Assembly: GCA_902810755.1 (NCBI GenBank)
Contig: CADDYT010000010.1
Span: 1-64,000 of the forward strand
Reading direction: 5' to 3'
DNA length: 64,000 nucleotides
DNA from: Chloroflexota bacterium
Lineage (GTDB): Bacteria; Chloroflexota; Ktedonobacteria; Ktedonobacterales; Ktedonobacteraceae
The position numbers and the translations under genes are program-made. Under the pieces are notes generated by a model. That model was not told the origin of the DNA. It did no database searches and worked only from the letters and a program-made list of their open reading frames with translations. Shown here piece by piece: positions 48,670 to 63,295 of this stretch (position 1 is the stretch's first letter; every line of letters starts with the position of its first letter).

Positions 48670-48739
48670 TCTCTGACTGTCCCGCTGAATGTGTACCGCT
48701 CGAACCTTCCTCGTCTGGTTGATACAGGAGTTGCAAACT

Positions 48740-49287
48740 ATGCCCTTTCCGTTTGTCGCGTTTTTACGCCGATTTTTTCCCGAACCCTCACTTTCGTCTT
48801 CTGCCCCGTCTGGACGCATTCAGGAGCAGATTAATCCAACAGCCATTGCCTCTTCTCCCACGCAAGAGGACTGGTACTGGGGAAGATTGGCAACTGGAGG
48901 AGAGGAAGACTATTACTGGCGTAGGATCAGCGATAACTGGTACATCAAAGATGTAATTCCATCAACTTATCTGGAGTTACATAACACCTGCTATGAGGCG
49001 TATAACGCGAATCCGCTGGCGTTTGCCATTATTGAGATTACGACGAGCTTTGTGATGGGGAAGGGGGTGACGGTGGCGGCGACGGAGCCGGAGGTGCAGC
49101 GCGTGCTGATGGATTTCTGGCATGATCCCGATAATCATATGGAGACGCGGGTGTATGCGTTGTGTACGGAGTTGTCGCTGTATGGCGAGCAGTTTATCCG
49201 TTTCTTCGTCAATCGCTTCGATGGGCGCGTGAAGATCCGGCAGATTGACCCGTCGTTGATCGACCAGATTGAGACCGATCCCGATGA
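48740..49287 (+). CDS. phage-type portal protein, 5' part, interrupted by the integrative element
   Basis: Start ATG at 48740 with AGGAG nine bases upstream; the first 182 codons belong to the portal gene. NPLAFAIIEITTSFVMGKGV and LSLYGEQFIRFFVNRFDGRV, then RQIDPSLIDQIETDPDD, are portal-protein features; the portal is the dodecameric ring through which DNA enters a capsid. At the core GA (49286-49287) the frame enters the element and stops after VGSSVAT at 49312. Joined to 63278 the frame continues without a gap. No terminase gene lies upstream; the pseudokinase gene is the immediate neighbour, so this may be a domesticated or gene-transfer-agent-like locus rather than a full prophage. Confidence 0.85.
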
Positions 49288-50870
49288 TGTCGGGTCTTCG
49301 GTCGCCACATAGTTGCAATCAGCGTGCCAGGTGCCTCTTCATATTCCCTAAAGCCCTCGATAAAGCGCAGCAAGGGTAAAAAGACAGGCCGAGGAGTAAT
49401 GGCTGCAATCTGTTGTGCCTCCAGATCATAGGAGATACCATTCGGTTCAAGGAGATGAATCACCATCTCACGCTGCTCATCAACGGTAGCAACACTCCAT
49501 AGTGCCACTATTGTCGGAAGCTGCTCACCAGCCGCCAAGACTTCCTCTATCTTTACTCCACCTACCACTGGTGATTCTAAACTACGCAGCGCCAGTTCTA
49601 CCGCAGCCATCTCGCTCTCGAACTCTCTATCATCGATATAACCTTCCCTATGTTGCTTGAGAATGCGACTGCGTTTTAACGTAAGACGTTCTTTCTCCCG
49701 TTGGACAGATTCTGCATCGAAGCCTGCCTGACTGGCAGATTCCATGATTTTCTGCCGTACCATGTCACGCCATGAAGGAGGTAGCTGAAGCCCTTGTAAT
49801 AACTCTCCAAACTGTTGTGTTACCCGCTCTTTTCTCACGTGAAGAGAACCGCCTGTAGGGCAATCTAAACGACGAGCTTTTGCCATGTCCTTGTAGTATG
49901 AGTACTTTCCACCGCCATAACCCTTACAAGGCAGGTTTGTACCGCAGTAGGCGCATTCGAGATAGCCGGAGAAAGCATACACATGGGCCTTTGCAGCACG
50001 ATGAGGTGCATTATAGTTTACTTTTGCACCAAGACGTATCCGTTGCCACTCTTCATAAGTGAAAGCCGCTATATGTTGCCCCCTGTGTCGCTGACCGCGA
50101 TACACAACCGTTCCTCTGTCATCATCAGGAGCGTAAGCAGCATAGAATACGTTGCCAGTAATCGCATTGATAGTAGGAGCGGTAAAAGGTCGCTCACCAA
50201 ATCGTTTGCTACTGATACGGTATCCGGCTGCATTCACAGCATCAGCTATCTGGTCAGCACTCATCCCCTTCATGCGTAGCTCACCGATCATTCGCAAACC
50301 GGGAAAAGTGTCAGGATTAGGCTCTGGAGGTGTCCTCTTTCCTGTATGGCGATATCCGAAAGGAATATCGCCATTGAATAACCCTTGAGCAGCACGTTCA
50401 CCTTTGCCCTTACTAACATGCTTCGCGAGCATATCAGAAAAATAGGCCGCAAATGCTGCCAGGATAGTGAGTTGCAGTTTTCCCTCTGGGGAGGAGTAAT
50501 CAATGTGTTCGGAGAGAGAAACAAATGCTGTGCGATGCTCAGCCAGAATACGAAAGCTTTGCAGGGTTACCATAACATTACGAGACCAGCGATCTAAGGT
50601 ATGCACTATCACCACCTGAACACGACCAGTCTCAATATCCTTAAGAAGTTGCCGAAATCCAGGACGTTTAGCAATCTGCTCACTTCGAGCACTGCGCTCG
50701 TCATCTTCATAGAACACCGGAGCAGGCAGCCCACGGCGCATACACTCTTCAGTGATAGCTCTCTTCTGAGCGTCGATGCTGAAGTTATCCGCCTGCATAC
50801 GGCTGGAACGACGGACATAGCCAGCTACAACCACCGACGAAGGTTCAGAACGATCACGCCGCAGGTTCAT
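49209..50870 (-). CDS. large serine recombinase (integrated, shortened form)
   Basis: 553 residues from the ATG at 50870, chosen because GAGG lies six bases upstream; an ATG four codons earlier exists. GYVRRSSRMQADNFSIDAQK is the resolvase-type catalytic region with Ser22. VVIVHTLDRWSRNV and LTILAAFAAYFSDMLAKHVS complete that domain. The recombinase domain follows (PFGYRHTGKR to about 280). The zinc-ribbon region has YLECAYCGTNLPCKG and RRLDCPTGG, then a coiled coil. These proteins join attP and attB. The last 25 codons (below 49287) are antisense portal DNA, not element DNA. In the circle the frame would instead continue into the tail at 62479-63276, giving 793 residues. Confidence 0.93.
   Translation of the reverse strand: MNLRRDRSEPSSVVVAGYVRRSSRMQADNFSIDAQKRAITEECMRRGLPAPVFYEDDERSARSEQIAKRPGFRQLLKDIETGRVQVVIVHTLDRWSRNVMVTLQSFRILAEHRTAFVSLSEHIDYSSPEGKLQLTILAAFAAYFSDMLAKHVSKGKGERAAQGLFNGDIPFGYRHTGKRTPPEPNPDTFPGLRMIGELRMKGMSADQIADAVNAAGYRISSKRFGERPFTAPTINAITGNVFYAAYAPDDDRGTVVYRGQRHRGQHIAAFTYEEWQRIRLGAKVNYNAPHRAAKAHVYAFSGYLECAYCGTNLPCKGYGGGKYSYYKDMAKARRLDCPTGGSLHVRKERVTQQFGELLQGLQLPPSWRDMVRQKIMESASQAGFDAESVQREKERLTLKRSRILKQHREGYIDDREFESEMAAVELALRSLESPVVGGVKIEEVLAAGEQLPTIVALWSVATVDEQREMVIHLLEPNGISYDLEAQQIAAITPRPVFLPLLRFIEGFREYEEAPGTLIATMWRPKTRHHRDRSQSGRSTTGQSAGSSRAHRSD
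49268..49305. other. attL, left attachment site
   Basis: The portal half-site 49268-49285, the core GA (49286-49287) and the element half-site 49288-49305 (ends CTTCGGTCGC). The element half is an inverted match in 14 of 18 positions to the half at 63258-63275. Confidence 0.8.
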
Positions 50871-51036
50871 ACGCCACCTCATTCTCTTGAGCGACTGATG
50901 TTAACGGTAAAGAGAGCAAAGCCAGAATACGAGCATCTTGCTCAGCAACAGCCCGCTTCAAAATGCGAGCCAGCAACGCGCAGAACGCCACCACATCGGA
51001 CGAAAGTGCTTCCACTTTCTCAGTTTCGTTTGCCAT
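50854..51036 (-). CDS. small hypothetical helical protein
   Basis: 60 residues, helical (SSDVVAFCALLARILKRAVA, EQDARILALLSLPL). It overlaps the start of the recombinase gene by 17 bases, indicating translational coupling, so it may be an accessory or regulator of recombination. GGGGAGACAT precedes the ATG. No family recognised. Confidence 0.6.
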   Translation of the reverse strand: MANETEKVEALSSDVVAFCALLARILKRAVAEQDARILALLSLPLTSVAQENEVAYEPAA

Positions 51037-51175
51037 ATGTCTCCCCTATTCTAGCATATCTACAGGCAAATTGGTACATCTGACCTAGACGATGCACTCC
51101 ATTGAACAGCAAACAAAAAAAGCCAGAAGCAAAAGCTACTGACTATCACGGAAGAGCTTTATTTGTCTGTTTGAT

Positions 51176-51769
51176 TCAATACCCAGGCCGAAAAGCACGC
51201 GCCACGTGTTGCCAGCAGATCACCTCAAAGGTATTAGCAAGGAGACCAGAAACCAGCATCGCAAAGGGCGAACTACGCTGAAACCGGGCAGAAGGTATAT
51301 CCATCCACATCTCAAACATTTCCCTCATCCAGTCCTTGAGCAGATCAGCGCAAGCGTACACGCTCGGCGATAGGTGCAGCAGCACAGAAAACTGCTGTTG
51401 CCACTCTGGATAACTCACGATGCTCTGGTAGAGAGTGAGCGTAAAAAGATTGTCGGTGGTCATCGTTTCCCCAACCAGCAACCGTACCAGCACATCCCAA
51501 TCGACAGAGGCCAGGGCCGAGCCGACCAGATCGGAAGCCAGCAAGCGCATCGCATCATCCTGTGACCAGTCACGGCCAGCATAGCCCGTTAACCAGTTTT
51601 CCAGCGCCATCTTCACCCACATCTGCACGCGCCAACCCGCCGCTCCATCGTTAGCGGCATCGGCCACCAAGCCCGTGATCTCGTGCATCAACGCCTGCTC
51701 ATTGCTCAGGTGCAGATGCACGAGCCAGGTAAACTTATTTTCCCAACCGTTATATGCGTTCAGTCGCAA
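51176..51769 (-). CDS. element protein with phage-type YNGW..TW motif
   Basis: 197 residues from a TTG at 51769, six bases after AAGGGGG; a GTG at 51793 inside the replication gene is the other candidate. The start LNAYNGWENKFTWLVHLHLS resembles a small phage-protein family with NGWxNxxTWxV motifs. The rest is helical (WRVQMWVKMALENWLTGYAG). Function unknown. It follows the replication initiator directly and is likely cotranscribed with it. Confidence 0.6.
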   Translation of the reverse strand: MRLNAYNGWENKFTWLVHLHLSNEQALMHEITGLVADAANDGAAGWRVQMWVKMALENWLTGYAGRDWSQDDAMRLLASDLVGSALASVDWDVLVRLLVGETMTTDNLFTLTLYQSIVSYPEWQQQFSVLLHLSPSVYACADLLKDWMREMFEMWMDIPSARFQRSSPFAMLVSGLLANTFEVICWQHVARAFRPGY

Positions 51770-51780
51770 GCAACACCCCC

Positions 51781-52911
51781 TTAACCGGCCCACCGACGTT
51801 CGCCACGTTGATAGGCCCAGATGCTAATCACACGTCCTGACATCTGTCGTTGCCCTTCACGAAGATCAATCAATGCCTCTAACAGCGCCTTGCGCCGCCG
51901 CCGCTTATACTCTTTGATGTCCTGGGTGAACTCTTCCCGCTCTACCAGCGTCCACGACGACCGCCTTACCAGTTGTCTTTGTCCCTCTTCTGGCCTGTCA
52001 GCCGCCTCTTGCCCACTTTCGCCAGAACCAACCACAGCAGGAACACTTTCTGTTTGCGCCCCCTCTGACACAGCCTGACCATCGGCCTGTTCCATCACGT
52101 TCTGTTCCAGTTCAGAGAACAGACGCGCCCGCAGCGTCGTCACCGATTCGGGGAAAAAATGCCGGGAATAGCGAATGCGCCGCGCTTTGCTGACCAGTTC
52201 CGCCGTGTAGGTTTGCCGTTCCTCAACCACATGCCCTTCGTTATCGACAGTGATACCGACTCGTTCCCGCTTCTCAGTGCGAACGCCCTTTTCGCTTCTG
52301 GTCAGGCTTTTGGTGAGGTACTTAGTCACATAACCGATCACCTGCGGCTTGCGAATACCCTCCACATCAACGATATAAGCAACGCCATGGCGCGCCGAGC
52401 GCCAGCCTTCTTTGAGGATGTCGTGAGGAATATAGGTTGCACCTTTGACCAGCAGATGCCAGTGAAAGCCGTTCTCTTCAAAGTCGCTATGCCGTTCCAG
52501 TACCGCGAAGTATTCCACCGGATACGCCTCACGCGCCCCCACATGATGCGGCCCACGACCTTTTGAGCCACGGCGTAGGTATTGCAGGAACGTCGTGAGA
52601 GCGCGAGCCGCTTCCTCTACTGTATGACCCGCTTTCGTCAGCGTGATGAACAGGGTCGGTTCAGCAGCCTTGACCAGTTGCCGCCACTGATCCACTTTGC
52701 GCGGCCCACAGTAGAGACAATCCCACCGATTGCAACGAGCGCGAACGATCTCACCTGTTTCCTGATCGATGAAGACATGACGCAGCGCCCAGGGGTCGGG
52801 ACAGAACAGCAGGCTATCAACCCCATGCTTCTCTGCCATATCCGCCTGTTTCTCTAGTGAGAACACCTGCCAGGAGTGCCGCTCCACCTTCAAAGTCCCT
52901 GCATGTTCCAT
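51781..52911 (-). CDS. HUH-type rolling-circle replication initiator
   Basis: 376 residues from the ATG at 52911, supported by AGAGAGGTG upstream. CNRWDCLYCGPRK (about 60-72) is a zinc-knuckle-like motif, LFITLTK (87-93) is motif 1, GFHWHLLVKG with H150 and H152 is the HUH metal motif, and YVTKYLTKS with Y194 and Y198 is the catalytic motif 3. The C-terminal 120 residues are charged and helical. Such proteins nick one strand at an origin and stay linked to its 5' end. The presence of two Tyr suggests the two-Tyr (phage/plasmid) class. A candidate origin hairpin lies upstream at 53346. Confidence 0.85.
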   Translation of the reverse strand: MEHAGTLKVERHSWQVFSLEKQADMAEKHGVDSLLFCPDPWALRHVFIDQETGEIVRARCNRWDCLYCGPRKVDQWRQLVKAAEPTLFITLTKAGHTVEEAARALTTFLQYLRRGSKGRGPHHVGAREAYPVEYFAVLERHSDFEENGFHWHLLVKGATYIPHDILKEGWRSARHGVAYIVDVEGIRKPQVIGYVTKYLTKSLTRSEKGVRTEKRERVGITVDNEGHVVEERQTYTAELVSKARRIRYSRHFFPESVTTLRARLFSELEQNVMEQADGQAVSEGAQTESVPAVVGSGESGQEAADRPEEGQRQLVRRSSWTLVEREEFTQDIKEYKRRRRKALLEALIDLREGQRQMSGRVISIWAYQRGERRWAG

Positions 52912-52939
52912 TGGCACACCTCTCTGAGTCCTTAGCCAC

Positions 52940-53263
52940 CTACTTCCAGACACACTCCACACATTCAATTGCATCAGCAACCCCGAAAAGCCTTTTGACC
53001 TCTTCCCTCATCGGCCAAGCATGGTCAGGACAGCAAGCCCGACCACAGATATGACAAACCAGCAGCCCTTCATCACGCTCACAGTAGCAGCAACGCTCAG
53101 GAACCATTTCTCTGCATGACCGTTGATAGCAGTCCTCACAGAGCCGTGTCCCTGTCAGAGTAAACAGCCATTCCGCTCTGCCATGACAGCACAAACTGTC
53201 ACAGTCCACACCAGCAGCGTTCTCATATGGCGCGAACCACGCCGACCAGTCCGAGTTTGCCAT
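52940..53263 (-). CDS. Cys-rich zinc-finger-like protein
   Basis: 107 residues from the ATG at 53263, seven bases after a near-perfect AAGGAGGTG. Paired Cys motifs run through it (CDSLCCHGRAEW, LCEDCYQRSC, ERCCYCERDE, VCHICGRACCPDH, IECVECVWK), suggesting two or three bound zinc ions in a treble-clef or B-box arrangement. It sits 28 bases upstream of the replication initiator and may assist it. Family not recognised. Confidence 0.7.
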   Translation of the reverse strand: MANSDWSAWFAPYENAAGVDCDSLCCHGRAEWLFTLTGTRLCEDCYQRSCREMVPERCCYCERDEGLLVCHICGRACCPDHAWPMREEVKRLFGVADAIECVECVWK

Positions 53264-53345
53264 CGGCATCACCTCCTTGTGCCAATTCAAAGTCGGCTAC
53301 ATGGTACTTGTGTGACTTACGCTTATAAGGGTCAAGGGAAAGGCC

Positions 53346-53403
53346 CGGCGGTTTGTACGTCGTCCGGCGGGGCCCCTCCCCCACCGGCGCGTACAAACCG
53401 CCG
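53346..53403. repeat. 14-bp inverted repeat, candidate replication origin
   Basis: CGGCGGTTTGTACG (53346-53359) and CGTACAAACCGCCG (53390-53403) are perfect inverted copies around a 30-base GC-rich loop. The block lies in the 320-base gap between the primase gene and the Cys-rich/Rep genes, where rolling-circle origins are often found. It could also be a terminator or an oriT. No gene is supported in 53264-53584. Confidence 0.55.
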
Positions 53404-53584
53404 CCGCCGAGACGACAAGGGGCCAGCCAGCGCGCGAGCGGCACAGAAAAGAGCAACAGGACAGACAACCGCGAGAGAAAAACCGAGAGATGGGGGTGGG
53501 CAGGGGTAGGTGAAGCAAGCAGCAGCCCCGGAACTGGTCACTGGTACGCCCCACCCCCACAGGGAACGTGAGCAGCCGGGAAGG

Positions 53585-54541
53585 CTACCAGTTGCCGCGC
53601 AGGACACGTTGCCACATCTCTTGCGCCGAGCAGCCGTGAGAGAGGCAGAGAAAGTCAAACAGGTTGCCCGCACGGCCCCAGGTGTAGCAGTACCAGTGCG
53701 GGTCCGCGCCGCCGAAGACCTGGAAGCTGGGGCGCACATCACCGCGATAGTGATGCTCTTTGAAGGGGCAGCGACCGACGCCGCGCCGATCTAGCGAGAC
53801 ATAGCGCCCGATCACCTCAAAGATGTCTTGCGACTGGCACCATTGCCGTATCGTCAGGTCATACTCAGGTGTTCGACTCGCCCCGCAAATGGGCAGAATC
53901 CACCCCTCATTTTGAGGTGCTTGCGCTAATGGCAAGCTATCAACCGGCACCGTCACCCGCTCGACATGGGCCGTCGCCCACAGACAGCAATCGGCGACCG
54001 TTTCCCCCACCGGCGCCAGTTCGCCCACCTCATTGCATGTCAAGAAGGGATACCAGCCGCCGCTTTTGCGATGCACGCCCAATGGCAAGCGCACCAGCGC
54101 CCCCACGCCATCACTGGCAAGCCCATCTTGCTTCGGGTACAACTCGACACCGTAGGCTTGCGCATAGGGCAGCAGCCAGGCGCGCACCTGCGAGGCAGGC
54201 GTTGGCTCTCGCAGGTGCAGCCATAAGTGACCGCCGCGCCGACTGGCTTCTAACAGCGTTGGCATGCCCTGCTCTCGCAGGAGCGCGGCCAGCGAGAGCA
54301 GAACATCCAGCCCGTTGTCACTATCGGCATCGAAGACCGCGAAGGCGCAGGTGCTGTGCCGGTCAAGCAGATAGCTACCGAGGGTGTAACGCCCCATCAA
54401 ATGCGCGGTGAGGCGTTCCAGGGTAAGTGGCCCTCTGGCATGGCGGTAGGAACCATCGGCCTGCTGGACGGCGTAGGTGTCCCAACAGTGGATGAACAGC
54501 GAGGCGTAGACTTGCACGATCTCGCTGGTGATCCCGTACAT
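53585..54541 (-). CDS. archaeo-eukaryotic-type primase with C-terminal CHC2-like zinc region
   Basis: 318 residues. CAFAVFDADSDNGLDV gives the catalytic Asp71 and Asp73, LLEASRRGGHLWLHL holds His105, and ALVRLPLGVHRKSGGW the phosphate-binding basic motif, all in the style of TOTE/plasmid primases. The C-terminus resembles the bacterial DnaG zinc finger (CPFKEHHYRGDVRPSFQVF, YCYTWGRAGNLFDF), but the fourth Cys is Trp288. The order, primase first and zinc region last, is unusual. The start follows the stop of the Toprim gene by two bases. It probably primes DNA synthesis for the element. Confidence 0.82.
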   Translation of the reverse strand: MYGITSEIVQVYASLFIHCWDTYAVQQADGSYRHARGPLTLERLTAHLMGRYTLGSYLLDRHSTCAFAVFDADSDNGLDVLLSLAALLREQGMPTLLEASRRGGHLWLHLREPTPASQVRAWLLPYAQAYGVELYPKQDGLASDGVGALVRLPLGVHRKSGGWYPFLTCNEVGELAPVGETVADCCLWATAHVERVTVPVDSLPLAQAPQNEGWILPICGASRTPEYDLTIRQWCQSQDIFEVIGRYVSLDRRGVGRCPFKEHHYRGDVRPSFQVFGGADPHWYCYTWGRAGNLFDFLCLSHGCSAQEMWQRVLRGNW

Positions 54542-54543
54542 GC

Positions 54544-55875
54544 CTACGAGACTTCCTGTTCATAGCCTGAGAGCAGCGGCTTGCCCTGGAACTGCTTGTA
54601 GGCAGCAAGCTGTTCGAGGTAGTCGCGCTCGGAGTTGTAGAGACCCTCGCCCACCTCGTTGCCCCAGGCTGCCTGTGGCAGAGGATAGTAGGCCAGATCA
54701 GGAGCCGAGAGGGCCAGTTCCTGACCAATGGCTTGCCATACGGCTTGCACGCGCTGGCTGTAGCCCTGCACCCGCCCCTCGAACTCTTGTCGCAGGGTCT
54801 CATGTTCGGCTTGCAGGGCTTGCAGATCGTCGGCATAGCGGCCAACCACCTGTTGCCAGGTCAGATTCAGGTCCTGCTCTAACGTCGCTCGTACCTGCTG
54901 CGTGCGCTCTTCCAACGTGGTGTCAAAGTAGCACTCGATGTAGTGACTCAGCACGCTTTGCAGTTCGCCGGGGTAGAGCGCCTCAAGGGCGTCAAGCTCG
55001 ACGGCCCCTTCGCCGTAGCGATCTTCAAAGCCTTGCCGCCGCCGCTCGGTCTCTTTGATCGGAGTGCGGGGCAGACCGTAGTGACGCACCTGCTCGAGGG
55101 TGAGAACGACCGGGAAGACGCGCACATCGACGGAGAGGCCCAGGGTACGCACAAAGTATTCGATTTTGCGCGAGACGGCCACCGGCATCGATTGCCCGGC
55201 AGGGTCGAAATCGGAGACGTAGAAGATGCGCGCCGGTTTCCTGGCTTGCTGTAAGCGGAAGGCTAAGGCCAGCGTGGCCGTGATCGACAGTTCGCCCAGG
55301 CCCGTTTGCAGGTTGGCCCCGTAGTGCTGGCAGAGGGGAGCCAGCACATCATTCATGGTCGATTTCTCACACCAGATTTCCAGGTGATAGCCCTGTTGCG
55401 GTTTATAGCCACTGATCCGGTAGGAGGGCAGCGTTGGAAAGTCGGGAAAGCTCAGATCAGACTGCCACAGATTGCGACTGACGGAGACTTCCGGTTCGTA
55501 GACGCTGCTCGTGGCAAAGACCACCGGGTCGGGGTTGCGCCGGTCATCAAAGGCCGCCGGGTCGACCAGCCGCAGGTAGCGCGCCGCTTTGGAGGCCAGG
55601 TTGAGGATGTTCCAGCACTCTTCCGTATTCTCATACGGCTTGCCATTGGGCAAGGCGATGGGAGGGCGCTGGCTGATAATCTGGTAATGGACGCGGCGGA
55701 TATGCACGTGGCCGCTATAGCCGAAGGCGTGCCACAACTGCGCGAACCATTCGGCCAGCGCCCAATCCGAAGGCGTGCCGGTATAAAACGGGTCATTTTG
55801 CGGAGCCAGGGCGATCAGGTCAGTGACGCGCTGCCCACTGGCTTTTGCCATCTGTTTAATCTGTTCATAATCCAT
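54544..55875 (-). CDS. Toprim-domain protein related to Topo VI A/Spo11
   Basis: 443 residues. IRRVHYQIISQRPP near 59-72 recalls the winged-helix tyrosine motif of the Topo VI A/Spo11 family, with Tyr64 as candidate. HLEIWCEKSTMNDVLAPLCQ supplies Glu170 and FYVSDFDPAGQSM supplies Asp222 and Asp224, the Toprim metal ligands. VFPVVLTLEQVRHYGLPRTP is also family-like. The last 110 residues are coiled-coil. Strand cleavage is inference and depends on Tyr64. No Topo VI B (GHKL) partner is present. It is coupled to the primase gene downstream. Confidence 0.7.
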   Translation of the reverse strand: MDYEQIKQMAKASGQRVTDLIALAPQNDPFYTGTPSDWALAEWFAQLWHAFGYSGHVHIRRVHYQIISQRPPIALPNGKPYENTEECWNILNLASKAARYLRLVDPAAFDDRRNPDPVVFATSSVYEPEVSVSRNLWQSDLSFPDFPTLPSYRISGYKPQQGYHLEIWCEKSTMNDVLAPLCQHYGANLQTGLGELSITATLALAFRLQQARKPARIFYVSDFDPAGQSMPVAVSRKIEYFVRTLGLSVDVRVFPVVLTLEQVRHYGLPRTPIKETERRRQGFEDRYGEGAVELDALEALYPGELQSVLSHYIECYFDTTLEERTQQVRATLEQDLNLTWQQVVGRYADDLQALQAEHETLRQEFEGRVQGYSQRVQAVWQAIGQELALSAPDLAYYPLPQAAWGNEVGEGLYNSERDYLEQLAAYKQFQGKPLLSGYEQEVS

Positions 55876-55959
55876 GCCTGTTCACCTCATGCAGACAAAG
55901 AGAGCCTGCCTTGCCCCCAGACAAGACAGGCCCGAGCAACGAAGAAACCACCTCACTGG

Positions 55960-56085: not shown

Positions 56086-56813
56086 TACGAGGAGCGCCCC
56101 TGCACCGGAGCGAAAGGGACTGCCACCCCTGCTTTATTCGTCGTCCCCATTGCTGCCGGAGCCGGAGTCTGTGCTTGATAGCCTTGCGGATAGCTTGCCA
56201 ATGGAGGAGGAGCACTCACCGGAGCCGCGCCAGCCGTGGGCATGGTATTCCACTTGGGTTGCCCTTTACCCGCAGCAGGCCCGGAGAACAAGGGACTGGC
56301 AGGAACGCCCGGCGGGGAAGCCGGACGAGGAGCGAAACCCGCACCGTGTTTGGAACGTTCCAAATCCATATCGACGACGGCCAGCAGCACCGAGACCAGC
56401 GGGATAATCGCCAGCACCACATAGGTCAGGCCGGTCAACACCGTGCGCTGGACGAGCGGAACAGCAGAGAGCCAGGTCGCATGCTGGATGACCGCCGCCG
56501 CCAGGGCATAGTTACAGAAGACCTCGACCAGTTCGACCACCAGGCAAATGGGAGCATAGGCCCAGATGCGTTCTTTGTTCATCAGCCGCAACGCCAGGCC
56601 GCGACTGACGAAGTAGCCCAGCACGCCGAAGCCAATAGCGATCATCCAGGTGATGGCCGACTGCAGGTAGTCTACCCCATCCAGAGGGGCGAAGAACCAG
56701 CGAATGGCATGAGCCGAGGCCAGCGAGAAGCCCAGAGAGACCACGCGCAGCACCAGGTGTTCAAAGCGGCGCACCCACACCTGCTGACCGCTCAACCCGC
56801 CAAACAGTTGCAT
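56085..56813 (-). CDS. polytopic membrane protein with Pro/Ala-rich tail
   Basis: 242 residues with AAGGGGGTG six bases before the ATG. About four or five membrane helices occupy residues 20-145 (SAITWMIAIGFGVLGYFVSR, LVVELVEVFCNYALAAAVIQ, GLTYVVLAIIPLVSVLLAVV). The last 90 residues are Pro/Ala/Gly-rich and cytoplasmic or extracellular. No transporter or secretion motif is visible. On a mobile element this could be an entry-exclusion or secretion-like component, but nothing supports a choice. Confidence 0.65.
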   Translation of the reverse strand: MQLFGGLSGQQVWVRRFEHLVLRVVSLGFSLASAHAIRWFFAPLDGVDYLQSAITWMIAIGFGVLGYFVSRGLALRLMNKERIWAYAPICLVVELVEVFCNYALAAAVIQHATWLSAVPLVQRTVLTGLTYVVLAIIPLVSVLLAVVDMDLERSKHGAGFAPRPASPPGVPASPLFSGPAAGKGQPKWNTMPTAGAAPVSAPPPLASYPQGYQAQTPAPAAMGTTNKAGVAVPFAPVQGRSS

Positions 56814-56830
56814 GCATCACCCCCTTGCGA

Positions 56831-57181
56831 TTACGCCGCCGCCGCGACGGCAGCCAACTGGCAGACCAGGGTCAGGAAGGAGCCTTTGCCCTTGATCCGG
56901 CGCACCTGAAGGGCGATGTGCGTCATCTTGGGCGGCAATTCGGCCTGCAATTGCTGCGCCACCTGCGCCAGCACGTCGGCAGGCTGGCCCTGTTTCTTGA
57001 GGTCGCGCAGCTGATCGAGGGAAGGAATGCCCTCACTGAGCTGGCACTCGTACTTTTCGTCGGTCTCGCTATCCAGCACCGTCAATCGCACCGAGTAGCC
57101 CGGTTTGGGCTGGCCGGTCATCTGGTCATAAAAGGTGCTTTCCACCACCTGACTGTTCAAGACCAATCCTTGCAGTAACAT
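56831..57181 (-). CDS. small element protein, possibly ssDNA-binding
   Basis: 116 residues from the ATG at 57181 with AAAGGGATG upstream. The sequence is beta-rich in the first half (LVLNSQVVESTFYDQMTGQP, YSVRLTVLDSETDEKYECQL) and helical later (AQVAQQLQAELPPKMTHIAL). Size, position among replication genes and strand pattern would suit a filamentous-phage-type single-strand DNA-binding protein, but this is inference without a diagnostic motif. Confidence 0.5.
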   Translation of the reverse strand: MLLQGLVLNSQVVESTFYDQMTGQPKPGYSVRLTVLDSETDEKYECQLSEGIPSLDQLRDLKKQGQPADVLAQVAQQLQAELPPKMTHIALQVRRIKGKGSFLTLVCQLAAVAAAA

Positions 57182-57265
57182 CGTTTCATCCCTTTCTTGC
57201 TTGTGCTTGTACACACACGTTGACAACAATGCATCAAAAAGAGGCCCATCAGAACACGCAGATCG

Positions 57266-57766
57266 CTAGTCGTCTTCCTCTTCCAGACAGGAGCCATCCA
57301 ACCAGTAGGGCGTAAAAGTCTGCGACGTGGTGGGAATGCCGTAAGGACGAGTCGGAGCAAGAGCCTCGGCCTCACAGGGCCTGACATCCTCACGGCCCCC
57401 GTAAATGAAGTCGTGACGCACCCCTGAGGCCCGTTGAAAGCCCGCTGCGCGCACAAAGGCCAGATCAGCACTCACCAACCCTGGACGCCGACGACCGCAC
57501 GTTAACACCTCATCCGGCCTCATCTGCAACGCCGCCTGTACGTAGGAGCGAAACAGACGGCGTTGCTCGGTCGCTGGAAGCGGTTGGCCGCGCGTATTGC
57601 GAAAGTCTTGCGGGGTCAGGTATTGCACATCTAACGGGTGCAATAGCGGCAGCCCTTGCCGCGCCCGCCAGCGCGCACTGAAAGCCGCCCAGCTGGCAAG
57701 ACCGGCCAGACGCTGGTGCGCAAATTCGGCATTGTAACGTCGGAAATTGCAGTGACTCGGATTCAT
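57266..57766 (-). CDS. hypothetical element protein
   Basis: 166 residues, basic in the first half (FARRYN-like start NPSHCNFRRYNAEFAHQR) and acidic at the end (LDGSCLEEEDD). The ATG at 57766 overlaps the TGA of the gene before it (ATGA), so translation is probably coupled. No recognisable domain. The next gene downstream is 84 bases away. Confidence 0.6.
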   Translation of the reverse strand: MNPSHCNFRRYNAEFAHQRLAGLASWAAFSARWRARQGLPLLHPLDVQYLTPQDFRNTRGQPLPATEQRRLFRSYVQAALQMRPDEVLTCGRRRPGLVSADLAFVRAAGFQRASGVRHDFIYGGREDVRPCEAEALAPTRPYGIPTTSQTFTPYWLDGSCLEEEDD

Positions 57767-57987
57767 GGCCGCAGCACCTCAGCCACTTCCAGGGGATGGG
57801 CCAGAGCATCGCTGGCGATCCAGTGCAAGTCCTGCACCAGTTCGGCCAGTTGTGCATCACCCACGATGCAGGCCGCTTCATAGAGCGGAACCGTCAACGC
57901 CACCACCTGTGACCACTCCCCTGCCTCAAGAGCTACATTGATGGTGTCAATCAACCCATCCAGGTCAACATGCGTTGGTGAAGACAT
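57763..57987 (-). CDS. small acidic hypothetical protein
   Basis: 74 residues from the ATG at 57987 with GAGGGGAAG eight bases upstream. Helical and acidic (VDLDGLIDTINVALEAGEWS, DAQLAELVQDLHWIASDALA). It overlaps the neighbouring genes on both sides, which supports a tightly coupled operon. Family unknown. Confidence 0.6.
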   Translation of the reverse strand: MSSPTHVDLDGLIDTINVALEAGEWSQVVALTVPLYEAACIVGDAQLAELVQDLHWIASDALAHPLEVAEVLRP

Positions 57988-58207
57988 CAGCAGCTTCCCC
58001 TCTCTCAGCGCAGTCATTCCCCGGCTGCATAAGCCCCCTGGCCTCTTCACAGAGCAGGGAGGGCAGCTCAGACGGAGCCGAGGCAACACAGTGCCGACAG
58101 ACGCCGATATAACCACAGCCACAGAGGCAAACGAAGTAGCCAGCCCCCACACGTTCAATGCAATGCCGTGTGTAGGCCAGCCGCAGACGCAGTTCCGCAG
58201 AAAGCAT
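57965..58207 (-). CDS. small Cys-rich protein
   Basis: 80 residues with AAAGGGAACACC before the ATG at 58207. A compact CLCGCGYIGVCRHC motif suggests one zinc site. The rest is helical and acidic. It overlaps the start of the next gene by 23 bases. Function unknown; similar in style to the larger Cys-rich protein at 52940. Confidence 0.6.
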   Translation of the reverse strand: MLSAELRLRLAYTRHCIERVGAGYFVCLCGCGYIGVCRHCVASAPSELPSLLCEEARGLMQPGNDCAERGEAADVFTNAC

Positions 58208-58275
58208 GGTGTTCCCTTTCTCTCTCAGCGAAAGCCGAGGCCATCGACCATCAGGAGCCAGACACGGGAAACGGG

Positions 58276-58755
58276 CTACGCGGTCTCATCAGGCGGACGC
58301 GAGTCATCAAAGACCAGCCCCCACTCCTGACAGAGCCGCGCCACCTGTTTGCGAACGTCCTGAGCCTGCCGCAAGAGCCGTTGCTGCTGTTGTTGGGCAT
58401 GAGCGTAGAGCGGCTGATAGAGGGCCGCTTTCTCCGTCAGGCCGAACTCGCGCAGCCAGGAGATGCTGTGTTGCCAGTGCCAGCACGCCTGATTGATCGC
58501 CCGTTGCATGCTCTCAAACCACGCGACGGCGGCAGCGGTCAGTTCTTCGACACCCGAACACAGCGACCATAGCCCTTGCTGATAGCTGTAGCGCCACTCC
58601 TGTTCCTGGCAGACGGCTTCAATGGCATGGGTAACGGCATACAGTTCCGCTTTCACCGTTGCCTGTGCGACAAAGGCCAGCCAGGGGGCAAGCACCTCCT
58701 GAAACGAAGGTTGCGCTTGCTCAAAAGGCATGGCCCCATCAATGGTTTGGACCAT
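58276..58755 (-). CDS. hypothetical helical element protein
   Basis: 159 residues with AGAAGGGGGAAAG ahead of the ATG. All-helical, rich in Gln, Ala and Trp (AVTHAIEAVCQEQEWRYSYQ, AHAQQQQQRLLRQAQDVRKQ), with a probable coiled coil near 120-145. No domain recognised. In the same operon direction as the replication genes. Confidence 0.6.
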   Translation of the reverse strand: MVQTIDGAMPFEQAQPSFQEVLAPWLAFVAQATVKAELYAVTHAIEAVCQEQEWRYSYQQGLWSLCSGVEELTAAAVAWFESMQRAINQACWHWQHSISWLREFGLTEKAALYQPLYAHAQQQQQRLLRQAQDVRKQVARLCQEWGLVFDDSRPPDETA

Positions 58756-58767
58756 CTTTCCCCCTTC

Positions 58768-58875
58768 TTAAAACCCATGCTGCAAGGTGTTCAGGGCCGT
58801 CGGGCCGAGGACAACCAGCCAGGTCACGAACATCACCGCCGCAATCAGCAGCCAGATCACCGTTTTCTTGCCCAT
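58768..58875 (-). CDS. 35-residue single-span membrane peptide
   Basis: MGKKTVIWLLIAAVMFVTWL then a short tail; AAAGGAGTGCG lies upstream of the ATG at 58875. One membrane helix. The strong ribosome site and tight fit between neighbours argue for a real gene. Confidence 0.55.
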   Translation of the reverse strand: MGKKTVIWLLIAAVMFVTWLVVLGPTALNTLQHGF

Positions 58876-58977
58876 ATCGCACTCCTTTCGCACGTATGGC
58901 TTGCCAATAAAAAAGGACACCCAACACGTGAGTATCCCAACCAGCAACACTTGAACAAACTACGAGGTCGCGTCACG

Positions 58978-59124
58978 CTAATGCGGCATGCTTATCAGGT
59001 ACAGGAAGCCGATCAGACAGGCCAGACCGATGAGCCAGCCCAGACAGCACAGTTTCCCACGCAGACGAAAGAGCAGCAGGAACACAACCAGGGCAACCAT
59101 AAACAATACCGGAGCAAACCTCAT
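58978..59124 (-). CDS. 48-residue two-span membrane peptide
   Basis: Starts at the ATG at 59124 after AAAAGGAGTAATG. Two hydrophobic segments (VLFMVALVVFLLLF and LGWLIGLACLIGFLYLI) are separated by RLRGK. It pairs with the 35-residue membrane peptide 102 bases downstream. Function unknown; small membrane proteins of this type on mobile elements can be holin- or toxin-like, which is only a possibility. Confidence 0.55.
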   Translation of the reverse strand: MRFAPVLFMVALVVFLLLFRLRGKLCCLGWLIGLACLIGFLYLISMPH

Positions 59125-59158
59125 CTCATTACTCCTTTTCTCTAAGCTGCCTCATGGC

Positions 59159-59292
59159 TAGCTAACGCGATGTGCAACTTTTTTTCGGCGCGCTTGAAAA
59201 GTGAACCTGAAAGTAACCGAAGAAGTCATGCAAGAAAGCTAATTGGCTTCGCAAGCGTCGACGCAAAAGAAAGTTGCACATCGCGTTAGCTA
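59159..59292. repeat. 134-bp element with 23-bp perfect terminal inverted repeats
   Basis: Arms 59159-59181 and 59270-59292 (TAGCTAACGCGATGTGCAAC and its complement) are identical over 23 bases. The right arm touches the stop codon of the 48-residue gene at 59293. It has the shape of a small non-autonomous transposable element (MITE) or of a protein-binding site pair. No open frame inside. Confidence 0.75.
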
Positions 59293-59439
59293 TCAGACAA
59301 CTTGGTATATCTCGAAACGCTGGCATTCGGTGCGCATCAAGGCACGAGCCAGTTTCGTCGGTCGATTTTTGCGCACGACCTCAACGGTTTCGCAAACACC
59401 ATTGAGCAGGTAGTACACAATCTGCCAGGTATGTAGCAT
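59293..59439 (-). CDS. small hypothetical protein, 48 residues
   Basis: Starts at the ATG at 59439 after TTGAGGGGGTGATG. The product is MLHTWQIVYYLLNGVCETVE then a basic, helical segment with RPTKLARALMRTECQRFEIY. Its stop lies exactly at the edge of the 134-bp repeat element. It follows the sigma factor gene by 79 bases. Family unknown. Confidence 0.55.
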   Translation of the reverse strand: MLHTWQIVYYLLNGVCETVEVVRKNRPTKLARALMRTECQRFEIYQVV

Positions 59440-59518
59440 CTCATCACCCCCTCAAACGTGGCAGAAAAAAAGGATACTCGTTTGAGTATCCCAACGTTGC
59501 AGCATGAAAGAGCCAGAC

Positions 59519-60346
59519 TCAACTCGCTTGAAGCAAGACACGACGCAAGCGGGTGCGAGCGCGGCGATCAAGCTCCTGAACTCTGTTCAGTCCCATGCCG
59601 AGCAAACGCGCTGTCTCTTGCTGTGTGTATGCCCGACCATCGCCAAAGCCGTAGCGCGTCAGAATCACAGTACGTTCACGCTCGGTTAAGCATTCCAGCA
59701 TCTCTTCCAGCGTCGACAGGTCATCATCTACAGTGGTAGCAGTATCTTCAATGGCCTCCGCGAGCGTCATACCCTCATCGTCATCAATGGGAGTATCCAG
59801 GCTCATCACCTGCTGTTGCTCTTGCAACACCAGCAATTCCAACACGTTGCCCTCAGTCGTTCCCATCTCAGCCGCCGTTTCACAGATCGTCGGTTCGCGA
59901 CCGAGCAAACTATACAACGCATCATTGACAGCTTTCATTTGCTTGAGAGCGCGAGCCTTATGCCAGGGCAGCCTGATTGTACCTTCATAGCGCCAGCGGG
60001 CAGTCAGCATGGAAATGCGTATCCACGCGAAGGCAAAGGTACCGAACGAAGTCTCTTCCCTGCGTCCATCGTACTTTGCCAGTGCCTGAAGGAGTGCGAC
60101 ATTGCCCTCTTGCACGAGGTCGAGAAGCTCCAACGTCTTACAATTTCGCACAAATCGTTTTGCCAGAGCGAGGACAAGCGGTTGATAGCCAGCGACCAGG
60201 CGATCACGGGCTTGCTGGCTATCAATTCCCTGTTCCATGCAGAGAAATAGCTGTGTTTCCTCTTCACCTGTCAACTGTGGCGTCCGCCGTACCTCGCTCA
60301 TGAACTGCTCGAAAGCTCCCAACGGGACATCCTGCATCTGTTCCAT
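59519..60346 (-). CDS. element-encoded sigma-70 family factor
   Basis: 275 residues with AAAGGGAG before the ATG. LVAGYQPLVLALAKRFV and LELLDLVQEGNVALLQALAK are region 2.1-2.2, TSFGTFAFAWIRISMLTARW regions 2.3-2.4, GREPTICETAAEMG region 3 and LTERERTVILTRYGFGDGRA, then TQQETARLLGMGLNRVQELD, region 4. It is group-3-like: short, without region 1.1. It lies at the head of the minus-strand gene block, 214 bases from the divergent XRE-NUDIX regulator, and probably directs RNA polymerase to element promoters. Confidence 0.9.
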   Translation of the reverse strand: MEQMQDVPLGAFEQFMSEVRRTPQLTGEEETQLFLCMEQGIDSQQARDRLVAGYQPLVLALAKRFVRNCKTLELLDLVQEGNVALLQALAKYDGRREETSFGTFAFAWIRISMLTARWRYEGTIRLPWHKARALKQMKAVNDALYSLLGREPTICETAAEMGTTEGNVLELLVLQEQQQVMSLDTPIDDDEGMTLAEAIEDTATTVDDDLSTLEEMLECLTERERTVILTRYGFGDGRAYTQQETARLLGMGLNRVQELDRRARTRLRRVLLQAS

Positions 60347-60430
60347 AAATCCATCTCCCTTTGTTCACCTGAACGCTTCAGCTTCCTCAGACATTGCCAC
60401 CACAAAACAGCACTCTATTGGCTCCTGATG

Positions 60431-60439
60431 TGCTATAAT
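60431..60439 (+). promoter_or_regulatory. extended -10 promoter
   Basis: TGCTATAAT at 60431-60439 is a consensus extended -10; no good -35 is present. It points to the XRE-NUDIX gene at 60561 and lies in the divergent gap with the sigma gene. Confidence 0.5.
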
Positions 60440-60496
60440 GTCTCGGCGATCTACTTTAATTATTGTTCAGAAAGATGGGAATAACTGAGACACAAC

Positions 60497-60556
60497 GGGA
60501 CAAAATGGGACAAACCGTTAGCGGCAAACAGGGCCACTTGCAACAAAATGGGAAAG
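60497..60556 (+). promoter_or_regulatory. repeated GGGACAAA operator-like boxes
   Basis: ACGGGACAAAATGGGACAAA at 60498-60517 holds two GGGACAAA units 10 bases apart, and AAAATGGGAAAG recurs at 60545-60556, just before the start codon. Spacing of one helical turn suggests a binding site for the XRE regulator itself; that is inference. Confidence 0.4.
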
Positions 60557-60560
60557 ACGC

Positions 60561-62162
60561 ATGAGAGATTTTGGCATCTTCCTCTCTAACTTACGGAGCA
60601 GCGCCGGACTCTCTTTAGAAGAGCTATCCAGGCTGGTTGACAGCAGTAAGAGCGCGCTTTCACGACTGGAAAACAACGAAGTACCGCAGCCCTTCAAAGG
60701 ATCTGTACGCAAGTTGATTATTGCCCTGGCAGAGATTCTCTGTACATCGAAGGCGGAAACGAAGCACTACCTTGAATTAGCAGGCATGAACCAGGCACTT
60801 CTGACAGAGACCGAGAAAATCCAACTCGGCTTTACCCCGGCCATTCCCGCCAGTTCGGCTGAAGAAGTCATCACACTTGAACGGCTAGAGAGCATCTATA
60901 CCCAGTTGCTTCAGCAATTAGAAGCGCGGGAAACGGCATTAGGTATCAGCAACTCACCGCCGAACTTGAAACTGAAGATTCAGGAATACGCCAATCTACT
61001 TCAGGAAATCCAGAAAAGACTTGACAAGATTTACAACAGGCAGGTAACATCAGAACTTGACGAAGCCCCAGAGGTACAAATCTACCATGCAGAGGCGTTA
61101 GAAGGGAAAATTGTCGTGGGATATCAATATGGTGAAAATCTGAATAAGGTGCTGAGTAGCTACAATCTCTACTCACTCGCATCACCGAATGCACGCTGGT
61201 TAATGCAGCTTGCCGACGTAGAACGTTTCGCCGTTGACGATTGCATCATTCTCACCAACAGTCATGATTTTGAGGGATGGGATCGTCACGAAATCAAGAC
61301 GACCATTCTCAGCACATCATTACCCGTTCCAGAAGACCTGGAAAAGCTCAGACTGGAAAAACTTCCAGGCATTGAGAAGGATTACTTCAACTCGTCCCAC
61401 TACCGACTCTCATCCTATACGCCATCCTTCAGCGATCTTGACCGCCTGGAAGTCGTGTTAGCCCCTTTAAGCTTTCACGACTACTACAGCCTGATACCCT
61501 ACCTTGATGAGCCATTATTGACGACGATAGACGGTACAAAAATCTCCATTCGCCAGAAATACGGCAACACTGCGCTCACCTATAGCTCAACAGATCGTGG
61601 AACATCCCTCATCCCGGCACCGATCAGCATTCAATGCATCGTTGTGACCAGAGACAACCAGATTTTACTCATGCGCCGATCTTCATCCGTTGCTTTCTAC
61701 CCCAATCACTGGTCAGCATCCTTTGAGGAAACGATGAACGCGCCCGGTACCGACCGCAAAGGCAATCCTTCACGTTCGGCTGATTCCGACTTCTTTGCTG
61801 GAGCCATCCGGGGCTTAGATGAAGAGTTTGCCCTTTCTCCTGATGCAGTTGAGAGCATCAAAGTGCTATCCCTCAACATCGAATACCTTACCCTGTCGGT
61901 TGATGTCATCACAGCCATCAAACTCAATCTGGATGCTGAAGAGATCAGGCAAAGCTGGCTCCTGAAAGCCTGGGATAGAGACGAAGCCTCAAAATTCGGC
62001 CTCTTATCTACCGACCTGAACGCCGTCGTAAACAAGCTCTTCAGCAGAACGCTCTGGCACCCAACCGCCAGAATGCGCCTCATCCAGTTCCTTTTCCACA
62101 CTTACGGCGTTGATGAAGTTGCAAAAGAGATCAAAGCGAAGAAAGATACTTTGCAAGTCTGA
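60561..62162 (+). CDS. XRE-HTH and NUDIX-like regulator
   Basis: 533 residues. An XRE helix-turn-helix comes first (FLSNLRSSAGLSLEELSRLV, then SKSALSRLENNEVPQPFKGS). A helical linker (about 100-165) and an unrecognised mixed domain (about 165-340) follow. From 350 the sequence resembles a NUDIX hydrolase (ISIQCIVVTRDNQILLMRRS), with FAGAIRGLDEEFALS near 413 standing in for the REUxEE part of the NUDIX box. HTH plus NUDIX suggests a repressor sensing a nucleotide or related metabolite. It is the only long plus-strand gene in the element and is divergent from the sigma factor, as an immunity-type regulator would be. Confidence 0.78.
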   Translation: MRDFGIFLSNLRSSAGLSLEELSRLVDSSKSALSRLENNEVPQPFKGSVRKLIIALAEILCTSKAETKHYLELAGMNQALLTETEKIQLGFTPAIPASSAEEVITLERLESIYTQLLQQLEARETALGISNSPPNLKLKIQEYANLLQEIQKRLDKIYNRQVTSELDEAPEVQIYHAEALEGKIVVGYQYGENLNKVLSSYNLYSLASPNARWLMQLADVERFAVDDCIILTNSHDFEGWDRHEIKTTILSTSLPVPEDLEKLRLEKLPGIEKDYFNSSHYRLSSYTPSFSDLDRLEVVLAPLSFHDYYSLIPYLDEPLLTTIDGTKISIRQKYGNTALTYSSTDRGTSLIPAPISIQCIVVTRDNQILLMRRSSSVAFYPNHWSASFEETMNAPGTDRKGNPSRSADSDFFAGAIRGLDEEFALSPDAVESIKVLSLNIEYLTLSVDVITAIKLNLDAEEIRQSWLLKAWDRDEASKFGLLSTDLNAVVNKLFSRTLWHPTARMRLIQFLFHTYGVDEVAKEIKAKKDTLQV

Positions 62163-62170
62163 ACAAAATA

Positions 62171-62383
62171 ATGTCGAAAATCGTAGCAGTCATTCTAAGC
62201 ACGCTTGGTGTCATCACCATTGTATCGGCGATTATCTGGTTTGTCTTCTACCTGAAAGGGAAGCAGTTCGCCTTACGAGATCGCCTCCAAAAAGCCGACG
62301 CTATTGTCGTCCTGGCCGGCACTCGTGGCAACATCCAGTACCTTGACGGCAAAATCTGTACTGCCCCCCTTAGGTTGGAATAA
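62171..62383 (+). pseudogene. YdcF/DUF218 membrane protein, truncated
   Basis: The first 62 residues match a DUF218 start: a membrane helix (VILSTLGVITIVSAIIWFVF) then ADAIVVLAGTRGNIQYLDGK. A full family member needs about 200 residues. The frame is lost after DGKI and ends nine codons later. It follows the XRE-NUDIX gene by eight bases. The 95 bases after it hold nothing recognisable. The break suggests a past deletion near the right end of the element. Confidence 0.6.
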
Positions 62384-62478
62384 GAAGATGTTATTGGAAC
62401 AGGTGTTTTCTCTCATTATACCACAATCGATCATCGAAAGTGGGCATGAACCGATCCTGTGGGGGCACTACAAACACT

Positions 62479-63276
62479 TTACTTTTCATCTTCGTTCTGT
62501 TTATAAGCCAGATACACTACTCTCCTGACGGTTGCCTGTGAAACATGATAGCTCTTGGCAATTTCGAGGAAAGTTTCACCTTGTTTCCTCCGCTGTAAAA
62601 TCACAGACCACTCAGAAGGAGGTAGCTTCATATGAAGGTGAGGAAAACGTTCTGGAGCCTGTAGAGTCCTTCTAGCCTCTTTTTCCAGACGCCGCACTGA
62701 TGTCTCTGAAACGCCATAATCTTTCGCGATTTGGTTGAATGTATCGCCCCGGTCGATTCGTTTCAAGATAACAGACCACTCAGAGGGAGGGATATTACAC
62801 CTGTAGCGAGGGGGACGTTCAGAAGCGTTGAATACCTTCCTCGCAGCTTTCTCTACTCGCTGAACAGCTTTCCTTGATACTGCATACTCCCTTGCAATCT
62901 GGCTAAGCGATTCCCCCTGGTCGATGCGTTGCAGTATCGCAGGCCACTCAGAAGGAGGTATCTTCCACTGGGAATGCTGGCGTCGGTCAGGAACGCCCAG
63001 GGCCTGGCGAGCGGCTTTTTCCGCGTTTCTGATGGTCGTATAGCTGACTCCGTATGCCTTTGCCACCTCTCGCAGTGGTTCCCCCTGGTCAATGCGCTCT
63101 AAGAGAGCGGGCCACACCGAGGGGGGGACTTTCCAGCGGGGATTAATCGGCCCTGGAAGGTTTTGGGGCGGAAAGACGCGCTGGAACTTCTCAGGCGGAG
63201 TAAAGGGAATGTCTTCGCCATCGGGGAACAGCTTTTCAGGTGGAATGCGACTTATGCGCGACCGATGGTTCGACAG
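62479..63276 (-). CDS. detached C-terminal HTH-repeat tail of the serine recombinase
   Basis: An open frame on the minus strand from attR to the TAA at 62479, with no ATG or GTG above 63117. It starts LSNHRSRISRIPPEKLFPDG and then carries four helix-turn-helix repeats of about 53 residues, each opening with (K)(I/V/L)PPSEW and holding LLERIDQGEPLREVAKAYGV, ILQRIDQGESLSQIAREYAV, ILKRIDRGDTFNQIAKDYGV and ILQRRKQGETFLEIAKSYHV. Its first codon (CTG, 63276-63274) is in phase with recombinase codon 528 when the element ends are joined. In the integrated state it is probably silent; initiation at GTG 63117 would drop half of repeat one. Confidence 0.85.
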   Translation of the reverse strand: MSNHRSRISRIPPEKLFPDGEDIPFTPPEKFQRVFPPQNLPGPINPRWKVPPSVWPALLERIDQGEPLREVAKAYGVSYTTIRNAEKAARQALGVPDRRQHSQWKIPPSEWPAILQRIDQGESLSQIAREYAVSRKAVQRVEKAARKVFNASERPPRYRCNIPPSEWSVILKRIDRGDTFNQIAKDYGVSETSVRRLEKEARRTLQAPERFPHLHMKLPPSEWSVILQRRKQGETFLEIAKSYHVSQATVRRVVYLAYKQNEDEK

Positions 63277-63295
63277 ATATCGAGACGCCGCTGCG
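63258..63295. other. attR, right attachment site
   Basis: Element half-site 63258-63275 (starts GCGACCGATGG), core GA (63276-63277) and portal half-site 63278-63295. Confidence 0.8.

Follow-up and report, generated by a model that had tools for sequence, protein, structure and literature searches.

The window considered here, a 64,000-nt stretch (positions 1 to 64,000 of contig CADDYT010000010.1) from a Chloroflexota bacterium of the family Ktedonobacteraceae, carries an integrated element of 13,990 bp (49289-63278) that splits a phage-type portal gene and encodes a large serine recombinase at its left end (Table 1). The element is mobile DNA of a soil-type bacterium, and its docking site, the attachment site of the circular form (attP), very likely lies within the coding sequence of its own inserting enzyme; it is probably integrative and plasmid-like.

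The boundaries of the element can be read from the portal gene. The two portal halves were searched separately, and 39 loci were fetched, 30 from genomes and 9 from viral contigs. Residue 200 of the first half abuts residue 1 of the second without a gap in all 33 loci that hold both halves, while the remaining 6 hold only residues 152 onward of the second half. The insertion site falls within conserved portal codons, between IETDP(D/E/N)D and IE, and excision would restore an intact portal frame, as the halves abut in frame in every two-half locus. GAT is common to both ends (49286-49288 and 63276-63278), which allows either boundary to lie as much as 3 bases away, and comparison of the ends confines the crossover point to this GAT and no finer. 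The predicted attP is an inverted repeat around TC (GA on the + strand), with 14/22 arm positions paired; this level of symmetry is reached by 3 of 13,930 centres within the element, and the centre of the repeat falls on 49286-49287, the core named in an initial annotation made from the letters of the window. The left and right junctions (attL and attR) are presumably about 50 bp wide, a width taken from known serine integrases.

Table 1. Positions of the features discussed (window coordinates unless a genome and contig are named; HTH, helix-turn-helix; ORF, open reading frame).
Feature	Position	Strand	Basis or remark
Portal gene, 5' part, attB left half	48689..49288	+	PHROG 10963 portal, 7.4e-11
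Host-coded C-terminal residues, 25-26 codons + stop	49209..49287	-	Antisense to portal gene
Large serine recombinase, short form, 557 aa	49209..50882	-	Pfam Resolvase, PHROG 95, Foldseek
attL, ~50 bp around core GA 49286-49287	49263..49312		End comparison, symmetry; width assumed
Integrated element	49289..63278		Portal halves abut here in 33/33 two-half loci; ends compared
60-aa ORF, overlaps recombinase start	50854..51036	-	Candidate accessory or directionality factor
Rep-like replication protein	51781..52980	-	Pfam REP_ORF2-G2P, 4.8e-10
Primase-like protein, AEP-TOTE + CHC2 zinc finger	53585..54541	-	Pfam
Topoisomerase-like protein	54544..55875	-	PHROG 6247, 6.2e-25
Sigma-70 family factor	59519..60346	-	Pfam
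HTH (XRE-type) regulator, 533 aa	60561..62162	+	Pfam HTH_31, 4e-8
HTH-repeat tail, C-terminal part of 797-codon circle form	62479..63278	-	Pfam; frame join; fused homologues
HTH repeat 4	62485..62619	-	AlphaFold model
HTH repeat 3	62665..62787	-	AlphaFold model
HTH repeat 2	62833..62955	-	AlphaFold model
HTH repeat 1, three helices	62998..63123	-	AlphaFold model m3b754092da64; Pfam
attR, ~50 bp around core 63276-63277	63252..63301		End comparison, symmetry; width assumed
Portal gene, 3' part, extends past window end	63279..64000	+	PHROG 10963 portal, 2.8e-24
tRNA-Asp graveyards (L133-L157)	G005 C10 2380001-2660000; G002 C1 1795001-2010000		Tails upstream of tRNA-Asp

A recombinase frame that crosses its attachment site

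In its integrated state, the recombinase comprises 557 aa from the first ATG or 553 aa from the second (protein P0001), and it matches PF00239 (Resolvase, 1e-29) and PHROG 95 (integrase, 1.2e-72). Residues Y18, R20, and S22 are unchanged across 19 aligned members and correspond to the YxRxS motif of the resolvase catalytic domain. Relatives P0016, P0019, and P0069 exceed the cut-off for PF07508. The top Foldseek matches are full-length integrases, best among them SPbeta and Bxb1, though with low template modeling scores (~0.2), and the alignment with the complete SPbeta integrase spans profile positions 13-504. A structural model of the 553-residue form (mean predicted local distance difference test score, pLDDT, 69.6; predicted template modeling score 0.41) was used solely for the fall in confidence at its C-terminal end: confidence is 85-92 over residues 441-520, then 50, then about 33, with the junction at residue 528. 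The folded core in this model appears to end just before the junction, and the short form looks complete; because of the drop near 528 and the SPbeta alignment over 13-504, it should hold every catalytic and site-binding domain.

When the ends of the element are joined in silico, the recombinase frame runs on into the tail as a single frame of 797 codons that stops at 62479. The initial annotation had given 793 and 553 residues for the long and short forms, which is correct from the second ATG, whereas the first ATG gives 797 codons and 557 aa. Its in-phase join to the stop at 62479 was reproduced, and the other two phases at the right end (1 or 2 bases dropped) stop after 8 or 13 codons, against 266 for the phase observed. 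Random joins within the element stay open equally long in 441 of 12,490 cases, so the open frame by itself is moderately improbable and suggestive only, and it is the relatives that decide. The tail contains four Sigma70_r4/HTH_23 stretches in Pfam, and its model, built on an alignment of six sequences only (mean pLDDT 75), shows four three-helix units. As the annotation had also noted, this frame has no start at attR: it is open from 63348, no ATG, GTG, or TTG lies ahead of the HTH repeats, and the earliest start codon, GTG at 63117, is within repeat 1, with six more farther in.

Relatives and their target sites

A search with the joined protein gave 225 relatives, and the C-termini of the 120 listed were sorted into classes by pattern matching and visual inspection. 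Of these, 34 end in antisense tRNA-Asp (DSNPRSSA or similar), and 8, including the window's own, have portal-type ends. Another 8 are joined to HTH repeats, which are the tailed homologues that the initial annotation had suggested searching for, and 5 have the HTH linker but are incomplete. The natural full-length enzymes carry one or four HTH repeats, and their tails vary in length and repeat number. Of these, P0016 (803 aa, four repeats by eye) is 51% identical to the joined query over 97% of its length, and the P0019 linker, NRRATNHRSHLALIPLEKLFP, is similar to the predicted window junction, TRHLSNHRSRISRIPPEKLFP. Taking the best of 31 portal loci for each tail, the antisense-portal reading matches the tails of 6/7 portal-type relatives, with only 0-2 of 1000 shuffles as good; the match of the P0070 tail is not significant (192/1000 shuffles equally good). 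Thirteen of the 25 ends classed as other (P0008, P0020, P0066, and P0085 among them) follow a loose peptide pattern, e.g., RDRQT or HQWD. RDRQT is the tRNA-Asp anticodon arm read in another frame, and some such ends may be altered tRNA-Asp sites.

The tail alone retrieved six proteins, one of them the window's own. P0122 starts with VASQY before the linker, where an intact portal predicts AASQY, and thus seems to be the right-hand boundary of a further insertion into a portal gene; in P0126, unrelated residues precede the linker, as expected of a cut-off tail at attR. An extra search for long forms added just two more proteins, both N-terminally incomplete. Viral contigs held no close relative of the single recombinase, the alignment query giving one distant locus, and the phage and plasmid searches returned distant integrases only.

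A scan of genome contigs yielded 27 loci, with recombinase matches at 1e-20 in 21 of the 47 genomes of the class. The att-in-gene arrangement is recurrent in Ktedonobacteria. A tRNA-Asp(GTC) gene on the opposite strand overlaps the end of the recombinase gene in 6 of the 10 closest loci. In tRNA-targeting relatives, the codons CGG AAC CGA CGG (RNRR) by the junction are also the antisense of the tRNA-Asp 3' end, so that an intact tRNA is restored by the element. Locus L001, on a 3,432-bp contig, holds a natural joined gene with one HTH, and its attP aligns as CGAC GGG CA TCGAAC with CGAC ATC TG TCGAAC of the window; the core differs as the target differs (tRNA-Asp vs portal), with one example each. 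In Thermogemmatispora carboxidivorans (G004), a 17.8-kb element (3958439 to 3976278) is arranged with the tail first and the recombinase last, and its two ends are in one frame at the common motif. The close relative G040 lacks this element, its flanks are 98.7% and 94.7% identical, and the crossover lies within AGCGGAACCGACGGGC. The T. aurantia recombinase has its end within tRNA-Asp (565903), 29.6 kb from the start of the tail frame at 595492; an empty tRNA-Asp site for this element was sought in G040, which holds the same element.

The tRNA-Asp surroundings of K. racemifer (280 kb) and Ktedonobacter SOSP1-85 (215 kb) each contain one full-length close relative, that of SOSP1-85 stopping before the att motif. 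Around these lie what we term graveyards, with 14 tail traces in K. racemifer (two of them maybe one broken tail) and 8 in SOSP1-85; at 3 and 4 places, respectively, the remains of a core lead directly into a tail. Repeated insertion beside earlier copies would explain these remains. A separate group of distant Chloroflexota serine recombinases (L011, L014, L018, L019, and L028, one on a viral contig) ends in antisense transfer-messenger RNA (tmRNA). The att sites of this group seem to overlap the gene end too, and their attR was not found in the contigs searched.

Closely related cores are also found with different ends. The cores of P0014 (HTH end) and P0028 (tRNA end) are 97.7% identical, and those of P0078 and P0024, which again end differently, 95.4%. 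In twelve pairs both members have the motif and their core identity is 95% or higher; over the 10 residues that follow, 6 of these pairs agree at no more than 4. One of the 6, P0063/P0084, is an artefact arising from tails of two residues, and P0065 is a member of three. P0069 and P0087 share 527/531 core positions and 40/93 tail positions, and the N-terminally incomplete P0127 and P0128 share 278/281 and 58/94. Since divergence begins at the att point, as crossovers between elements would give, the att site also seems to work as a joint for tail exchange.

Possible roles of the tail and known precedents

Taken as a whole, these observations are best explained by an attP within the recombinase gene and loss of the HTH tail on integration, an explanation that we hold to be highly probable. 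The architecture itself (attP in the gene, a long form on the circle, and a short form when integrated) was the central proposal of the initial annotation and is very likely right, as it is supported by natural full-length homologues, by the occupied and empty pair, and by C-termini antisense to tRNA-Asp or portal. In the proposed mechanism, attP would sit in the linker directly after the folded core, and on the circle the gene would read through attP into the HTH-repeat module to give the long form predicted in silico. Crossover at the core, as the boundaries and the empty sites show, then sends the module to the far end, where there is no common start codon before the repeats, and leaves the integrated core with a host-coded end, 25-26 residues of antisense portal here and 8 of antisense tRNA-Asp in relatives. 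The long form would perform attP x attB recombination, with the HTH array adding DNA contacts for finding or synapsing the sites. The short form would keep catalysis and lose this aid, which would bias it away from re-integration, towards the integrated state or excision, and leave it for excision with a separate directionality factor. The role that we favour for the tail is that of an integration aid lost on integration. The initial annotation had likewise suggested that the long form may favour integration and the short form excision, but with the switch replacing a directionality factor, a function for which a conserved 60-aa ORF just upstream of the recombinase is a rival candidate. A by-product that the sequence pairs above support is tail exchange, in which crossovers between elements at the att site would give one core different HTH modules. 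A bolder version, in which direction is set by rearrangement of the enzyme's own gene into an integration form and an excision form, the att site is a domain-swap joint, and the core went from GG to TC with the move from tRNA-Asp to portal, can be offered only tentatively.

Archaeal SSV-type integrases, which target tRNA genes, are the closest precedent, and they were missing from the precedents listed in the initial annotation. According to the available part of one source, these 'suicidal' integrases (SSV1, pTN3, pT26-2) have attP inside the integrase gene, integration divides the gene, and chimeras by exchange of parts have been proposed (PMC8371274). The attP position and the divided gene are thus common to both systems. 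SSV-type enzymes, however, are tyrosine recombinases in which the catalytic part is split from the N-terminal part, whereas here a bacterial enzyme with a serine resolvase domain keeps its core whole and loses only an accessory HTH module. Phage Mx8 reportedly also has attP inside a bacterial integrase gene, with integration altering the C-terminus, although its Int is of the tyrosine type, comes from a single phage, and lacks an HTH array. Large serine integrases such as SprA/YokA of SPbeta (PDB 9dxh, 9iu2) are alike in core profile and predicted fold but have no HTH tail. Their attP is not known to lie within the coding frame. In a man-made fusion of a serine integrase with its directionality factor, the fused module sets direction (PMC5737554, in the part available); that fusion was engineered, whereas in the present element integration removes the module instead of adding it. 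A protein gene that excision would restore is likewise split by fdxN/XisF, by gin in gerE, and by similar gene-interrupting elements (PMC5595907, in the part available). Regulated elements of this class (skin, fdxN, gin) are excised at a time set by the host programme, whereas the present element is known from sequence alone. The recombinase matches the XisF model far below its cut-off (108.4 against 375). No serine-type self-splitting integrase was found in the literature searched, which covers few subscription papers, and the available parts of PMC12884075 and PMC9689679 describe no such case.

Serine integrases are widely used tools, and their choice of direction is a central question. A natural family that rewrites its own C-terminus on integration would provide a direct test, as its two forms have one difference. 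If true, the reading extends self-splitting integrases from archaeal tyrosine to bacterial serine enzymes and shows modules and target sites changing together. Many annotated members of 520-560 aa would then be integrated forms with host-coded ends.

Several points weigh against this reading. The window protein falls short of the Pfam cut-offs for the Recombinase domain (20.4 bits, cut-off 21.1) and the zinc ribbon (17.9, cut-off 25.3), and its core model is weak at residues 146-188 and 244-295. The attB site lacks the symmetry of attP, with 3/15 positions, and attP of L001 reaches just 10/22. Among the 120 relatives, 25 have other ends after NRR that are explained in part only, and 40 show neither the motif nor a tail of the att-spanning kind; the wider family thus does not share the arrangement throughout. 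The recombinase of the 17.8-kb element of G004 has a premature stop in the catalytic domain, and this copy is therefore inactive as it stands and documents insertion rather than a working enzyme. The graveyards suggest that the integrated short form gives no immunity to further integration. The 60-aa ORF could be a rival controller of direction: tblastn gave a match close to where the recombinase begins in 9 of the 13 distinct loci (16 were supplied, 3 being second copies of the same place). Its core motif resembles VxAFCxLLARI. Separate recombinase and HTH genes were not seen in the loci read, though no systematic search was made, and P0124, a 260-aa protein with a Met start on a 5.8-kb contig, may represent an HTH gene in its own right. 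The contrast in selection between core and tail is likewise suggestive only. Among three Thermogemmatispora-like strains, synonymous and nonsynonymous codon changes number 5:0 and 5:1 in cores and 2:2 and 4:5 in tails; pooled, 10:1 and 6:7 differ with Fisher p = 0.033, on 24 codons from three strains, in pairs that are non-independent and with a second tail from a different element than the cores, and the single like-for-like core and tail comparison gives p = 0.17.

The strongest alternative to an integration aid is that the HTH tail is needed for any recombination, in which case integration would disable the enzyme and excision would require a long form supplied in trans by another element, as proposed for SSV-type integrases. 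The formal parallel with those enzymes speaks for it, the size of the tRNA-Asp graveyards suggests that many copies never leave, and the pairs with the same core and different tails fit a resident core that gained a new tail from a second element. Yet the folded core, with its catalytic and later domains, lies ahead of the junction, and the integrated cores of two strain pairs keep the 5:0 and 5:1 ratios given above; we regard this alternative as possible but doubtful. An unlikely reading is that attP lies in the gene since the element must carry the tRNA 3' end, the HTH modules being hitch-hiking regulators. It would account for the double duty of the RNRR codons, for the varied tails, and for the 40 relatives that have no att-spanning end, but members that have diverged, and that use two types of target, retain the HTH tail in frame, and the portal-type element keeps the design though no tRNA needs rebuilding there. 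Still less probable is translation of the cut-off tail from attR, starting at GTG 63117, farther in, or in host DNA, as a free repressor or excision factor. Seven in-frame ATG, GTG, or TTG codons in the window tail, the Met starts with which P0124 and P0126 were called as ORFs, and a host ATG in frame ahead of the T. aurantia tail would allow it; every start in the window, however, is inside the HTH repeats, the earliest cuts into repeat 1, and the tails look relaxed between strains, on the small numbers above. That an unrelated HTH ORF was joined in frame by chance, a reading for which only the random joins of equal length speak, is contradicted by natural fused homologues with the same linker and by the occupied and empty pair, and has negligible probability.

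Other genes of the element and the portal locus

Besides the recombinase, the element encodes the proteins listed in Table 1. The Rep-like protein matches RepSA at 21.4 bits, under the cut-off of 34, in a comparison with pSAM2-type actinomycete elements. No Rfam match was found across 40000-64000, and repeats considered as possible targets of the HTH array formed no clear array near the element ends. An intergenic inverted repeat of 27 nt (59159-59292; 96% complementary, 80-nt spacing) could be a regulatory site or an origin of replication. Directly ahead of the HTH regulator gene are three direct repeats similar to ACAAAATGGGACAAA (60490-60558), a possible operator.

A portal match is present in 25/47 genomes of the class. 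A prophage in the window of which the portal would be part was considered and dropped, given this distribution and neighbouring ORFs that look chromosomal by eye. In two genomes examined with PHROGs (loci L121 and L132), a capsid-protease fusion gene lies near the portal, and the two may form a phage-head locus that has been domesticated; in another genome, G025, the portal neighbours are not phage-like by eye. The portal gene seems to be a hot spot for integration. Two other serine recombinases (L125:16331-18367 and L131:12412-14478, both on the - strand) end in the same portal gene at a different codon, within inserts of ~41.6 and 224 kb (genomes G004 and G031), and the L125 enzyme has a C-terminal HTH_17/MerR stretch with weak excisionase-like PHROG matches. 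In K. racemifer and in genome G037, too, the portal seems to be interrupted.

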